DNA from: a virus
Direction: 5' to 3' (one strand)
Virus record (IMG/VR): IMGVR_UViG_3300022542_001402
Location: 1-22,549 of that record
DNA length: 22,549 nt
The notes under the pieces are model-generated. The model was not told the DNA's origin and made no database searches. It saw only the letters and a program-made list of their open reading frames with translations. Every line of letters starts with the position of its first letter. The first letter of the stretch is position 1. Both the position numbers and the translations under genes were made by a program. Below are positions 7,805 to 22,549 of the stretch, piece after piece.

Positions 7805-7814
7805 TTTAAATATA
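7805..7814 (+). promoter_or_regulatory. TATA box TTTAAATATA of the DGR
   Basis: About 25 bases downstream of its centre is 7833-7834, exactly the beginning of the inverted repeat that encloses the template RNA. This fits a transcript starting at the foot of the helix. Confidence 0.65.
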
Positions 7815-7831
7815 AGAAGATTATCTATTTT

Positions 7832-8088
7832 TGCCTTAGAGGTTTACTCTACAGGCTACACGCATCTGTCATAGTGTTAAAAACCATAAAATACAATGAT
7901 GATAGTTGGTAGCAATGAATAACCTTGGGTAAGTTAAGAGAGAACACTAAAATCATGGTGGAACTTAATGAAGATGCTATATGAGTCGCTAGGTTCTATA
8001 CGAATTCGGATTATGCTAACTTGAATTGTAATAGGAACTCTGATAATTCGAACTCTAACCTCGAAATAACCTGCTAATCTCTAAGGCA
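7832..8088 (+). ncRNA. DGR template RNA enclosed by a 13-bp terminal helix
   Basis: Bases 7832-7844 pair with 8076-8088 over 13 consecutive positions (one G-U), and an inner helix pairs TAGTGTT at 7872-7878 with AACACTA at 7943-7949. The template repeat occupies 7985-8069 just inside the 3' arm. Known DGRs require a structured RNA around the template. A competing local hairpin, TAGAG-GTTTA-CTCTA at 7837-7851, uses the same 5' arm. The 3' arm contains the only Shine-Dalgarno-like element (TAAGG) before the reverse transcriptase and includes the A of its ATG, so folding could limit its translation. Confidence 0.7.
7985..8069 (+). repeat. DGR template repeat (TR)
   Basis: Aligns without gaps to 9522-9606 (VR1) and 10095-10179 (VR2). 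Of 28 adenines in the TR, 17 differ in VR1 and 15 in VR2, while none of the other 57 bases differs in either. Read in the frame of the targets it is rich in AAT/AAC codons, as is typical, because A-mutation of these yields many amino acids without stops. The last bases before and after 8069 differ from both VRs in the same way, suggesting IMH* versus IMH. Confidence 0.96.
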
Positions 8089-9146
8089 TGATGATGAAAA
8101 CATACAATAAATTATATGAAAAACTTTATTCAGAAGAGAATTTAATATCAGCATTCAAAAAAGCCAGAAAAGGAAAATCAAAAAGAGATTATATTATCAA
8201 TTTTGAATCCAATCTAAATAAAAATCTGAAATTATTACAAAGAGAACTTAAATTAAAAACATATAAACCACAGAATCTAAAAAAATTTATTATTAGAGAC
8301 CCAAAGACAAGAACAATTCACGCATCATTATTCAGAGATAGAATAATTCATCATGCAATAATAAATCTTATCCAACCAATATATGAAAAAATATTTATTT
8401 ACGATTCTTTTGCAAGTAGAAAATTTAAAGGAACACATCTTGCAGTAGAAAGATTTAAATATTTTATTAACAAAGTGTCTTCAAATGGAAAAAAGATTAA
8501 GAAACCATTTAGTAATAATTCAATCACAGGTTATGTATTCAAGGCAGATATTAAACATTATTTTGATACTATTGACCATAAAATTCTGATACATATTTTG
8601 AGAAAGAAAATCAAGGATGAAGATTTTATAGGATTAATCCAAATTGTGTTAGATAATTTTGAGACATCAGAAAAAGGATTGCCTCTTGGAAATTATACTT
8701 CACAATTTTTTGCTAATGTTTATTTGAATAATTTAGATTATTTCATAAAGCACAGACTTCATGCAAAATACTATATTAGATATGTGGATGATTTTGTTAT
8801 TCTGCATAAAGACAAAAAAGTTTTATTAGAATTCAGAAATAAAATAGAAAAATATTTGAAAAGTTTAAAATTAGAATTGCATACAGAAAAATCCAAAATT
8901 TATCCATTAAGAAATGGAATTACTTTTTTAGGATACAGAATATTTTACCATTATAAATTATTAAGGAAGAGAAACATAAATTATTTTCTTAGGCAGTTTG
9001 AGAAAAAAGTTAATCTTTATCGCTGTGGATTAATAGAAAGAAAAGATTTAGAAGGTTTTTTACAGGGTTGGTTTGGTTATTCTAAATTTGCTAATACTTA
9101 TAATTTTAGGAAGAATATTGAAAAAATTATGAACAGAAACATTTAA
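8088..9146 (+). CDS. DGR reverse transcriptase
   Basis: 352 residues, typical for a DGR reverse transcriptase. In order: RDRIIHHAIINLIQPIYEK with IYDSFASRKFKGTH (84-117, the characteristic DGR motif 2 region), FKADIKHYFDTID with catalytic Asp154, GLPLGNYTSQ (197-206, motif 4), YVDD at 232-235 with the two catalytic aspartates, then LHTEKSKI and GITFLGYRIF, and a basic thumb. No maturase or endonuclease domain is present. Three ATGs in a row open the frame and the true start is uncertain by two codons. It copies the template RNA with adenine-specific errors. No Avd gene of the usual four-helix type is seen nearby. Confidence 0.96.
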   Translation: MMMKTYNKLYEKLYSEENLISAFKKARKGKSKRDYIINFESNLNKNLKLLQRELKLKTYKPQNLKKFIIRDPKTRTIHASLFRDRIIHHAIINLIQPIYEKIFIYDSFASRKFKGTHLAVERFKYFINKVSSNGKKIKKPFSNNSITGYVFKADIKHYFDTIDHKILIHILRKKIKDEDFIGLIQIVLDNFETSEKGLPLGNYTSQFFANVYLNNLDYFIKHRLHAKYYIRYVDDFVILHKDKKVLLEFRNKIEKYLKSLKLELHTEKSKIYPLRNGITFLGYRIFYHYKLLRKRNINYFLRQFEKKVNLYRCGLIERKDLEGFLQGWFGYSKFANTYNFRKNIEKIMNRNI

Positions 9147-9149
9147 ATA
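9142..9149 (+). promoter_or_regulatory. TATA box TTTAAATA for the first target gene
   Basis: Overlaps the reverse transcriptase stop and is centred about 25.5 bases before the ATG at 9171, so the target operon may have its own leaderless promoter in addition to read-through from the DGR promoter. Confidence 0.55.
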
Positions 9150-9170
9150 GTAATTATAATTATAATAAAT

Positions 9171-9644
9171 ATGATAAAAGATATTAGAAAGGAGATAAAA
9201 TCTCTTGAAAAGAAAAAAGAGGAAATAGACAAGAAAATTAATTCTCTCAACATTAAGTTAAATAATGAGTCTGAAAAATCAGAATGGATTGAAATTCCAG
9301 GAACAGATTATGAAGTTACAAAAAATGTTCTACATAAAGGAAAATCTTATGATGAAATAATGCAGTTAAAAAAGCCAGAAGAAGAATTATTGACTTTAAA
9401 GATGGTAGGAATAATCTGTGAAAATCCAAATCTATTGAAGGAATTAAAGATGGATTCTTCAAGCACAAATGATGACTTTTTTTTCAAGCAACCATTCCCG
9501 CAGAATGAAAAAAGAGGTAGAGTCGCTTGGTTCTGTGCGTATTCGGATTATGCTTACTTGGTTTGTAATAGGTACTCTGATGATTCGGTCTCTGTCCTCG
9601 GGGTACGGTTTGCACGCAAAAAAATTTCTGAAAGGAAGAAATAA
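9171..9644 (+). CDS. DGR target protein 1, C-type-lectin-like with N-terminal coiled coil
   Basis: 157 residues. Residues 1-40 form a Lys/Glu coiled coil, followed by a compact domain (WIEIPG, EEELLT, KMDSSSTNDDFFFKQPF) and the variable C-terminus that ends LGVRFARKKISERKK. The GVRFAR ending after a hypervariable stretch is characteristic of DGR-diversified CLec folds. It is paralogous to 9777-10217 over most of its length. No signal peptide or membrane helix is visible, so it acts in the cytoplasm or is incorporated into virions from inside. The coiled coil probably makes it oligomeric, giving multivalent display. The binding partner is unknown. Confidence 0.9.
   Translation: MIKDIRKEIKSLEKKKEEIDKKINSLNIKLNNESEKSEWIEIPGTDYEVTKNVLHKGKSYDEIMQLKKPEEELLTLKMVGIICENPNLLKELKMDSSSTNDDFFFKQPFPQNEKRGRVAWFCAYSDYAYLVCNRYSDDSVSVLGVRFARKKISERKK
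9522..9606 (+). repeat. DGR variable repeat 1 (VR1)
   Basis: Differs from the TR at 17 positions, all of them adenines in the TR. Its 3' end, CTCGGGGTACGG, and about 36 bases beyond are the same as in VR2, marking the initiation-of-homing side. The substitutions change to G or T except for one C in the shared 3' end. Confidence 0.95.
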
Positions 9645-9645
9645 A

Positions 9646-9780
9646 ATGGCATTAACACAAATTGATTTTGATGAAAAAGAAGAGAAAAAAATAGAAACTT
9701 TCTCTAAAAAGTGGAAGATGAACAAGCCTAAAACTGTCAGGAGAATGATTGCAGAATTTAAAGATGAAGTAAAAAAATGA
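9646..9780 (+). CDS. 44-residue ribbon-helix-helix-like protein between the two DGR targets
   Basis: A short beta strand (ALTQIDF) is followed by helix A (DEKEEKKIETFSKKW) and helix B (KPKTVRRMIAEF), the order and spacing of an RHH DNA-binding dimer. The ribosome site is the conserved GAAAGGAAG just after VR1, and the stop overlaps the start of the second target as ATGA. A longer upstream frame exists but overlaps VR1 and is rejected. It may repress the DGR or target operon, or take the nucleic-acid-binding part usually played by Avd. The latter is speculation. Confidence 0.75.
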   Translation: MALTQIDFDEKEEKKIETFSKKWKMNKPKTVRRMIAEFKDEVKK

Positions 9781-10217
9781 CAAATAAAATTAAACAAGCT
9801 CAAGAACTTTTAAAAAAAGAAGGTTACAAAGTAATAGTCCCTAATGAAATCTCAAACGAAGGATGGTTAGATATTCCAGAGCTAAAAATCTCTGTTGAAA
9901 TTGAAGTGCATGATAAAGATAAATCCTGGGATGAATTGAAATTATCTGAAAGAGAAAAAGAGCTATTGACAGCAGAACAATGTATCTGGTTAGCTAATTC
10001 TAAATATGCTAAAATTCTTAAAATGGATGGAAGTTCAAGTGAAGATGATTTCTTTATTCAGCAACCTTTTAATTTAAGCAGAAAGAATGGCTATGTCGCT
10101 GGGTTCTATACGTATTCGGATTGTGCTAACTTGTATTGTGATTGGGTCTCTGGTAATTCGGACTCTTACCTCGGGGTACGGTTTGCACGCAAAAAAATTT
10201 CTGAAAGGAAGGAGTAA
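9777..10217 (+). CDS. DGR target protein 2, C-type-lectin-like
   Basis: 146 residues. Paralogue of target 1: W(I/L)xIP near the start, EKELLTAEQCIWLANSK, KMDGSSSEDDFFIQQPF, then the variable region ending LGVRFARKKISERKE. It lacks the coiled coil, having instead a short basic helical head. No export signal is visible. It is translationally coupled to the RHH gene. Two targets fed by one TR give two independently diversified binders, possibly with different scaffolds. Confidence 0.9.
   Translation: MTNKIKQAQELLKKEGYKVIVPNEISNEGWLDIPELKISVEIEVHDKDKSWDELKLSEREKELLTAEQCIWLANSKYAKILKMDGSSSEDDFFIQQPFNLSRKNGYVAGFYTYSDCANLYCDWVSGNSDSYLGVRFARKKISERKE
10095..10179 (+). repeat. DGR variable repeat 2 (VR2)
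   Basis: Differs from the TR at 15 positions, all adenines in the TR. Ten of these positions are also changed in VR1. Together 22 of 28 TR adenines are changed in at least one VR, and the six unchanged ones (8004, 8010, 8019, 8031, 8046, 8068) include several second positions of AAY codons. Confidence 0.95.
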
Positions 10218-21386: not shown

Positions 21387-21815
21387 ATGGTAAAATTTAT
21401 AGATTTATTTACAAATTTTATGTTAATAGGTTTGGTTGTATTTGGTTTATTTGCTTTTAGTTCATTCTTCCAGGAAGAAAATAAAGTAGAAAATAAATTT
21501 ATGGAAAATTCATTAATGAGTAGCACGTATGCTAGTCTTAACTCTAGTTTATCAGGTTTAAGTGGACAAAGCCAAGCACAAAAAACATTATTTGAAAGTG
21601 AAAATCCAACAAGCGGATTTGGAACTATTTTATTATTCTCTATTGTTTCAACTGGAAAAATATTTAATGGAATGGTAATTGGATTATTTAACACATTAAT
21701 CAGATTACCTGTTACAGTATTAGGTGTAGACCCTATAGTGATTTCGGTTTTAAGTACAATTTTAATTTTAACTATTATAATTGGATTGTGGATAGTGTAT
21801 AAATTAGGTGGATAA
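21387..21815 (+). CDS. membrane protein, 142 residues
   Basis: Helices at about 10-28, 75-98 and 112-136 surround a Ser/Gln-rich polar segment (SSLSGLSGQSQAQ). It starts immediately after the adhesin stop. It has the size and layout of an envelope or minor capsid protein and is probably cotranslated with its neighbours. No family is recognised. Confidence 0.7.
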   Translation: MVKFIDLFTNFMLIGLVVFGLFAFSSFFQEENKVENKFMENSLMSSTYASLNSSLSGLSGQSQAQKTLFESENPTSGFGTILLFSIVSTGKIFNGMVIGLFNTLIRLPVTVLGVDPIVISVLSTILILTIIIGLWIVYKLGG

Positions 21816-21817
21816 AA

Positions 21818-22132
21818 ATGGTATGCGCAGGATTAGAAACATTAACAGATAATAGCATCACAGGAATATTGGCCTTTCCTACTAGTTGTGACTATCAATT
21901 TTATGCAAAGATTATGTTGGCATTTTTTATTATATTATCTTCAATTCTTTTTTATAGAGATAAAGAGCAAGGAAGAAAATCAGATATAATAAGTGCTTTT
22001 GGAGTTAGTGCTATTGCTACAATATTTGTGGCTTTAATTGGAACATTTTTAACAATAATCCAACCAGACATTTTTACAGAAATCTTTGTGGGTGGACTGA
22101 TTTTTATTGTAATTTGGCTTCTAAAGAAGTAA
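21818..22132 (+). CDS. three-helix membrane protein, 104 residues
   Basis: An outer N-terminal segment with two cysteines (MVCAGLETLTDN, TSCDYQF) precedes helices at about 28-46, 60-82 and 88-103, ending in KK. All phenylalanines are encoded by TTT, in contrast to the following capsid gene. It is the last gene before the capsid promoter region. Confidence 0.7.
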   Translation: MVCAGLETLTDNSITGILAFPTSCDYQFYAKIMLAFFIILSSILFYRDKEQGRKSDIISAFGVSAIATIFVALIGTFLTIIQPDIFTEIFVGGLIFIVIWLLKK

Positions 22133-22166
22133 TTTTTTGTTAACAAGCTTGTTTTTTTTGTTAACA
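22133..22166. promoter_or_regulatory. double GTTAAC element with T runs upstream of the capsid gene
   Basis: TTGTTAACAA (22137-22146) and TGTTAACA (22159-22166) are 21 bases apart and separated by the palindrome CAAGCTTG and a run of eight T. The T runs can end the late operon, and the two boxes can bind the proposed regulator. No other locus has two copies. Confidence 0.5.
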
Positions 22167-22235
22167 CACGTTCTTAAGGGGTGATTGACTACCTTTAGTA
22201 GTATATTGTTTGAAAGGGGGTTTTAAAAATTAAGA
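22167..22235 (+). promoter_or_regulatory. leader of the capsid gene
   Basis: Unlike other genes here, no TATA box lies 25 bases before the ATG. A possible box, AGTATATTG (22199-22207), would start RNA about seven bases before the ATG; a site further upstream would create a leader including GGGGTGATT (22178-22186) and GAAAGGGGG. Either purine run could pair with 16S rRNA. Confidence 0.4.
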
Positions 22236-22549
22236 ATGAGTGTAGCAAATAAAGTAAGAGATGCTGGTTTGATTTTAGGAGGCTTAGGAGTTATTGGTTT
22301 TATCGGTGTAATTTGGATGATGATTTACGGTAATATATCAGGTAACTTAGGTTTCGACACTGCTACTGCAGGGTATAACACTACAGAAGGAGTAATCGGC
22401 AATCTTACAGCAGGTTTCGCAACTTTCTTCGGATTCTCTAACACTTTCTTCACTATTGCAGCTATAGTTTTACTAATCTTCATGTTAGTAGGCTTACTTG
22501 CTATTGTGATGCAAATTGCAAAGGGTGGTAAGGAGAAAAAAAGCTCTGG
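22236..22549 (+). CDS. 5' part of a small two-helix protein, probable major capsid protein
   Basis: With bases 108-123 of the window start this gives 109 residues: a short basic head, helix 1 (about 11-31, GLGVIGFIGVIWMMIY), a Gly/Thr/Asn-rich loop (32-68), helix 2 (about 71-94) and a Lys/Ser/Gly/Tyr tail. Capsid proteins of spindle-shaped archaeal viruses have this size and two-helix layout. Phe is TTC in eight of nine cases, while the preceding gene uses only TTT, a codon bias expected of a very highly expressed gene. The gene has its own regulatory region and a strong terminator. I infer major capsid protein. A different abundant envelope protein is the main alternative. Confidence 0.7.
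   Translation, partial: MSVANKVRDAGLILGGLGVIGFIGVIWMMIYGNISGNLGFDTATAGYNTTEGVIGNLTAGFATFFGFSNTFFTIAAIVLLIFMLVGLLAIVMQIAKGGKEKKSS
22443..22549. repeat. terminal overlap marking a circular molecule (copy 2)
   Basis: Exact second copy of bases 1-107. See the first copy for the interpretation. Confidence 0.9.

Follow-up and report, generated by a model that had tools for sequence, protein, structure and literature searches.

Does the folded RNA in front of the reverse transcriptase (RT) gene of a diversity-generating retroelement (DGR) belong to the messenger of that gene, or to the template RNA from which the variable repeats (VRs) of the target genes are rewritten? The question is raised by a window of 22,549 nt, the whole stretch analysed here (positions 1 to 22,549 of IMGVR_UViG_3300022542_001402, catalogued as a virus record). 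An exact 107-bp repeat at its ends closes the record to a circle of 22,442 bp, which confirms the 22-kb circle of the preliminary description. The complete DGR reported there was recovered as well: an RT of the DGR clade, a template repeat (TR) with matching VRs, an IMH, and VRs located in coding genes were all found. The interval given for it, 7985-10179, does contain these DGR parts, but omits a folded RNA leader at 7833-7984. All features lie on the + strand and coordinates refer to the window.

The TR was located at 7985..8068, VR1 at 9522..9605 and VR2 at 10095..10178. The TR aligns without gaps to both VRs, and these deviate from it at TR adenines only, as had been stated. The earlier end of the TR at 8069 was shifted to 8068 while the start was kept; the A/C difference at 8069 lies outside the repeat. 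Similarly, the former count of 17 (VR1) and 15 (VR2) differences, all at TR adenines and none at the 57 other bases, is correct, but not all of these are due to mutagenesis. VR1 and VR2 share the last four of these differences (8064-8066 AAA>GGG and 8069 A>C), and throughout the relatives the VRs read GGGGTA where the TR reads GGAATA or GAAATA. Because it is the same in both VRs and recurs in the relatives, AAA>GGG at 8064-8066 was taken as a fixed difference between the IMH* of the TR (8063..8068, GAAATA in the window and GGAATA in relatives, partly paired in helix P3 described below) and the fixed IMH GGGGTA of VR1 (9600-9605) and VR2 (10173-10178). When the IMH positions are excluded, 13 of 23 adenines are changed in VR1 and 11 of 23 in VR2, compared to 0 of 55 other bases; the chance of such a restriction to adenines is 5e-9 for VR1 and 2e-7 for VR2. 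The changes in VR1 and VR2 differ at many adenines, hence the two repeats are indeed mutated at different subsets. The TR can be read in the target frame up to a stop just beyond its end, and the VRs continue into a common GVRFARKKISERK end.

Both target genes encode short proteins with a helical N-terminal part and a C-terminal VR. Target gene 1 (9171..9644) encodes 157 aa and target gene 2 (9777..10217) 146 aa, each with the VR near the C-terminus. They had been described as C-type-lectin targets with VRs at the 3' ends of the genes. The position of the VRs is as described; the fold is plausible, but not proven. The AlphaFold2 model of target 2 (pLDDT 80) is C-type-lectin-like and, when a target model was compared with the PDB and with viral structures, C-type-lectin domains were among the top matches at non-significant E-values of 0.04-0.3 (none < 0.001). 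The target sequence gave no significant match in the PDB. A binding role, probably with a C-type-lectin fold, may be assigned to the targets because of what DGR targets in general do. The presence of two targets for one TR, regarded before as notable, is ordinary, as relatives in the clade have 1-4. A small inverted repeat, TTTGCACGCAAA, follows the IMH of VR1 (9609..9620) and is repeated after VR2 (10182-10193). It corresponds to the hairpin that other DGRs carry behind the IMH (PMC4372165, PMC5006420). In VRs of relatives, a post-IMH stem of ≥ 5 bp was found in 43 of 73 cases (7.7 expected); that of the window itself is weak.

Using cmscan, the leader was assigned to the RT-16 RNA family (Rfam RF03019) at 7834..7985 with 68.1 bits (gathering score 50, E 1.7e-10), and its final base, 7985, is the first base of the TR. 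The Rfam model ends where the TR begins, and its one-line description states no function. The RT-x motifs are said to originate from Weinberg 2017. A literature search, with the original motif paper outside its scope, gave no paper naming 'RT-16 RNA' or tying it to DGRs.

The RT relatives compared were L002-L006, of which L002 is a MAG contig with the same element as the window (6 differences in 8,388 bp). RT-16 is present in L003-L006 as well. Single-sequence searches of IMG/VR with the RT or a target gave no relatives. Among 371 genomes of the CSMAG_2753 archaeon phylum, RT-16 was found in 106, often in several copies, and this RT in 111; 99 genomes have both, 7 RT-16 alone, 12 the RT alone and 253 neither (p=5e-67). 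The genomes of this phylum are mostly about 1 Mb in size. We infer that the phylum corresponds to DPANN/Nanoarchaeota because of its Ca. Pacearchaeota relatives, the genome size and the AvpA-like nanoarchaeal targets of some of its DGRs. The carrier of the retroelement is probably a circular virus-like element of a DPANN archaeon. RT-16 was found in 0 of 198 genomes of the bacterial phylum of L007, which carries a different DGR with the TR after the RT. RT-14, another such motif, was searched for in 148 genomes from the archaeal phylum bearing RT-16 and gave no match. A search for the core DNA pattern of RT-16 returned a single contig (L009), which is unrelated and was discarded, as it lacks RT-16.

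For the position of RT-16 relative to the TR, 65 loci were evaluated (60 further loci with their surroundings, L003-L006 and the window). An adenine-variable TR starts at or within about 20 nt of the RT-16 3' end in 53 of the 65, with 1-4 VRs nearby; in the other 12, several of them at contig ends, no VR was found. In most loci, including the window, no more than about 100-150 nt lie between the RT-16 end and the start of the RT. This proximity, together with a family name given for the position before RT genes, would also fit an ordinary DGR in which RT-16 is a cis-regulatory 5' UTR of the RT gene without any role in templating. However, 17 of the 65 loci have no downstream RT, and 13 of these 17 keep a TR and adenine-specific VRs at the end of RT-16. 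The leader therefore appears to be part of the template RNA and not of the RT mRNA. RT-16/TR units without an adjacent RT may use an RT in trans.

The leader is also connected to the TR by two helices, which the Rfam model does not contain. RNAalifold, when run unaided, recovered the leader helices only (20 of 23 pairs with compensatory changes) and missed both P1 and P3, which is why these two were tested explicitly. In P1, the 5' end of the leader (GCCUUAGAG, 7833..7841) is complementary to a stretch right after the TR (CUCUAAGGC, 8079..8087, immediately 5' of the RT start), so that the helix encloses the TR. In P3, a GGGCUA-type stretch of the leader is complementary to a UAGCCC-type stretch at the TR 3' end; in the window, CAGGCUA (7852..7858) pairs with UAACCUG (8067..8073) with one mismatch, C7856 x A8069. 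True partners were compared with permuted partners from other loci, which gave z=-13 for P1 (64 loci) and z=-16 for P3 (63 loci). P3 occurs in the compensatory forms CUA/UAG, CCA/UGG, UUA/UAA and UCA/UGA. In a separate MAFFT alignment of 36 of these sequences, changes on both sides were found somewhere for 8 of 8 pairs of P1 and 8 of 9 pairs of P3. In the same alignment, 87.8% of the cells of the whole structure are paired compared to 67.8% after shuffling and 33-43% after sliding, whereby the slid control favours the structure, as it was drawn up after viewing the sequences. Permuting the sequences gave 80% vs 67% for P1 and 82% vs 67% for P3; in permutation tests the bias from a hand-drawn structure is smaller, while kinship among the sequences is uncorrected. 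Folding the window RNA alone predicts a closed P1 (z -2.4). P1 is not kept in all loci (unpaired cells amount to about 20%) and is absent in L005. Since P3 joins RT-16 to the 3' boundary of the TR itself and P1 encloses the TR, the pairing speaks against a 5' UTR of the RT gene too, and we consider that explanation unlikely.

As a further alternative, the TR and VRs could be old duplicates in a decayed or frozen element with an inactive DGR. The VRs of the window and L002 are identical, i.e., there is no variation between these two near-identical assemblies, which is what a frozen element would give. On the other hand, the RT is open with intact motifs, and neither VR has any non-adenine difference to the TR. 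Furthermore, 5 non-adenine sites distinguish the TR of the window from that of L003, and there each of the four VRs has the base of its own TR (10 of 10 comparisons), while the target gene bodies are 94% and 91% identical. The orthologous VRs agree at only 13 of 25 and 14 of 25 shared TR adenines, compared to 51 of 51 at other shared TR bases. As the VRs track their own TR and diverge at adenines, both targets were rewritten, in one or both lineages, after the window and L003 had split. Thus, the sequences record past homing to both target genes, and a frozen element is improbable. In L004, the VRs have 2 and 4 non-adenine mismatches to their own TR, and the second VR retains the other sequence at sites 36-37. 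This single case would fit homing tracts which start at the IMH and end early.

Covariation by itself fits DNA and RNA equally, and P1 and P3 could accordingly act in DNA, either as inverted repeats moving the TR unit or as a cruciform. Several observations point to RNA instead. A TATA-box-like TTTAAATA was found at 7805..7812, about 25 nt upstream of the RNA start, and in the 65 loci TTTAWA boxes peak 27-31 nt upstream of RT-16 (34 of 65 loci compared to 6 of 63 in a control stretch). T-runs of ≥ 5 after P1 were found in 12 of 18 loci without an adjacent RT and in 7 of 46 with an RT. The TATA-like box at fixed distance before P1 and the T-runs after it suggest a discrete transcript. In addition, the RNA which P1 and P3 enclose belongs to a family that has covarying helices of its own. 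A function in DNA is hence rated as improbable, slightly below either of the explanations above, and the helices are regarded as parts of a template RNA.

The RT (8088..9146, 352 aa) matches RVT_1 (8.5e-23) and PHROG 1423 (E=1e-118). Its best solved-structure match is 8ub7 (E=2e-43, next match 4e-22), which we take, from its series, to be the Bordetella DGR RT-Avd-RNA complex. These matches and the position in the tree agree with the DGR-type motifs YVDD and GLPLGNYTSQ noted earlier. The nearest RTs are found in 'archaeon' and Pacearchaeota MAGs and the nearest annotated RT in the archaeal virus ANMV-1 (43%), both of which support the archaeal setting proposed in the preliminary description. 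An RT phylogeny had been suggested there as a check; in a maximum-likelihood tree, the RT of the window and those of the other RT-16 loci group with known DGR RTs opposite the group II intron RTs (100/100). The branch separating the RT-16 RTs from other DGR RTs is weaker (91/80), and therefore a single origin is likely, but not firm. A retron was tried and rejected (retron RT model 52 of 235 bits; the leader RNA matches RT-16 only). Another RT system of retron or group II-like type with incidental repeats is extremely improbable: group II and DRT/retron RTs are the best NCBIfam models, but all score far under their cut-offs (153 of 300 bits), and the adenine-only repeats, the IMH pair and the tree position contradict it.

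The DGR of BPP-1 and the Rfam family Phage_DGR (RF03022) share with the window adenine mutagenesis, the IMH, the RT clade and a structured RNA beside the TR. According to PMC12875486, the spacer RNA of BPP-1 folds, recruits bRT-Avd and primes cDNA from an internal adenine. This structured RNA (Phage_DGR) lies 3' of the TR, between TR and brt, with avd located 5', whereas the window has a 150-nt scaffold 5' of the TR and no avd was found. An Avd profile gave no match in the 65 RT-16 loci, whereas avd-like ORFs were found in four avd-type DGR control loci, two of which are in the training set of the profile; an accessory protein of strongly diverged sequence would escape it. A structured RNA adjoining the TR is also shared by RT-14 DGRs (RF02921; Bacillus phage BalMu-1 and, with a match under the gathering score, Vibrio phage VP58.5), but RT-14 starts at the TR 3' end, i.e., on the opposite side from RT-16, and avd-like ORFs were detected in RT-14 DGR loci.

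Among archaeal systems, the nanoarchaeal DGRs of Paul 2015 and AvpA, as presented in parts of PMC4372165 and PMC5006420, share archaeal hosts, several DGRs per genome, short VRs and the post-IMH hairpin. The features described in these parts are TR, RT, IMH, hairpin and an ORF regarded as Avd-like because of its size and charge; an RNA leader is not among them. AvpA-like targets occur in some RT-16 DGRs (target of L057 vs 5ioo, E 5e-10), but those of the window are shorter than AvpA and not AvpA-like by sequence. The DGR of ANMV-1, likewise from an archaeal virus and with the closest annotated RT, has no RT-16 and a phage-DGR-like layout with 113 nt between TR and RT; vir525 has about 100 nt at this position and no RT-16 either. 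In the window, about 20 nt separate the TR (end 8068) from the RT (start 8088), and the scaffold is 5' of the TR. RT-16 elements thus look like a mirror layout of the phage DGRs examined, with the scaffold 5' instead of 3', and we read the template RNA of the window as an archaeal form that is mirrored and avd-less. What appears to be new, with the literature other than the original motif paper as reference, is that RT-16 would make up the 5' half of a template RNA, together with the P1/P3 architecture of the latter.

The mechanism proposed below is based on a circular virus-like element that carries a complete DGR with a distinctive scaffolded template RNA, and is considered quite probable as a whole. 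A TATA-type promoter would drive a separate transcript of about 255 nt that begins with the 5' strand of P1, and the first 150 nt of this RNA (RT-16) would fold into a scaffold. The TR would form a long loop on this scaffold, closed by P1, which reaches past both its ends, and by P3. The scaffold is expected to bind the DGR RT independently of Avd and to hold the TR 3' end (IMH*) in place where cDNA synthesis begins, with priming presumably near P3. The RT would misread template adenines, and the cDNA would home to the IMH (GGGGTA) of both targets and replace the VRs. The more general reading goes further and is favoured with less confidence, though still above its negation: RT-16 would be the 5' scaffold of a separate, Avd-free class of DGR template RNAs in one archaeal phylum and its viruses, in which P3 clamps the TR 3' end, the RT is recruited and primed from the 5' side, and RT-less units are served in trans.

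With this assignment, an Rfam family without stated function would gain a job and its location beside RTs would be explained, and an archaeal DGR template RNA would obtain a structure backed by covariation. DGR template RNAs are predicted to exist in two layouts, with the scaffold either 3' or 5' of the TR. The choice of the TR 3' end as starting point by the RT becomes testable, and an avd-free system with an RNA of ~255 nt would be a simpler start for reconstituted targeted mutagenesis.

The window represents a complete circle of 22.4 kb, its two ends carrying an exact repeat of 107 bp (1-107 and 22443-22549). Family assignments were obtained for the integrase, a Dam-type methylase, the RT and an 1100-aa LamG-type protein, whereas no convincing family match was obtained for the other genes that were searched. 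Three consecutive small hydrophobic proteins are encoded at 21387-22547, next to the LamG-type protein; they may serve an unclassified archaeal virus as capsid or membrane components.

Downstream of the VRs, the two target genes are identical over more than 30 nt (9606-9638 and 10179-10211). Since the gene bodies differ, this sequence identity suggests a conversion or duplication reaching past the IMH, the fixed GGGGTA at the VR 3' end.

Relatives of the window's structural genes were found on three contigs (C15, C24 and C45) of the archaeal MAG CSMAG_2753 with 66-71% DNA identity, and two of the three carry RT-16 DGRs of their own. These contigs are related elements forming a family within one MAG. 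A further contig, 99.93% identical to the window, belongs to CSMAG_44, a MAG titled 'bacterium' which contains four RT-16 copies; either this title is probably wrong or the bin is mixed.

Several units of RT-16, TR and VR have no RT downstream (L051, L052, L055, L089, L105 and other compared loci). For some, the RT is absent from the entire 8-16 kb of surrounding sequence retrieved. Such units are possibly cassettes served in trans, or relics. Two loci encode long DGR RTs of 550-570 aa (L057, 249-1952, minus strand; L087, 2846-4498, plus strand), which are not located immediately 3' of the TR unit and match an HTH_40 domain at the C-terminus (E-values 1e-18 to 2e-19).

In the DGRs of Bacillus phage BalMu-1 (L117, 1337-1480) and Vibrio phage VP58.5 (L114, 1376-1495, scoring below the gathering score), the 3' side of the TR is adjoined by another Rfam RNA, RT-14. 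RT-14 may be a DGR spacer RNA as well.
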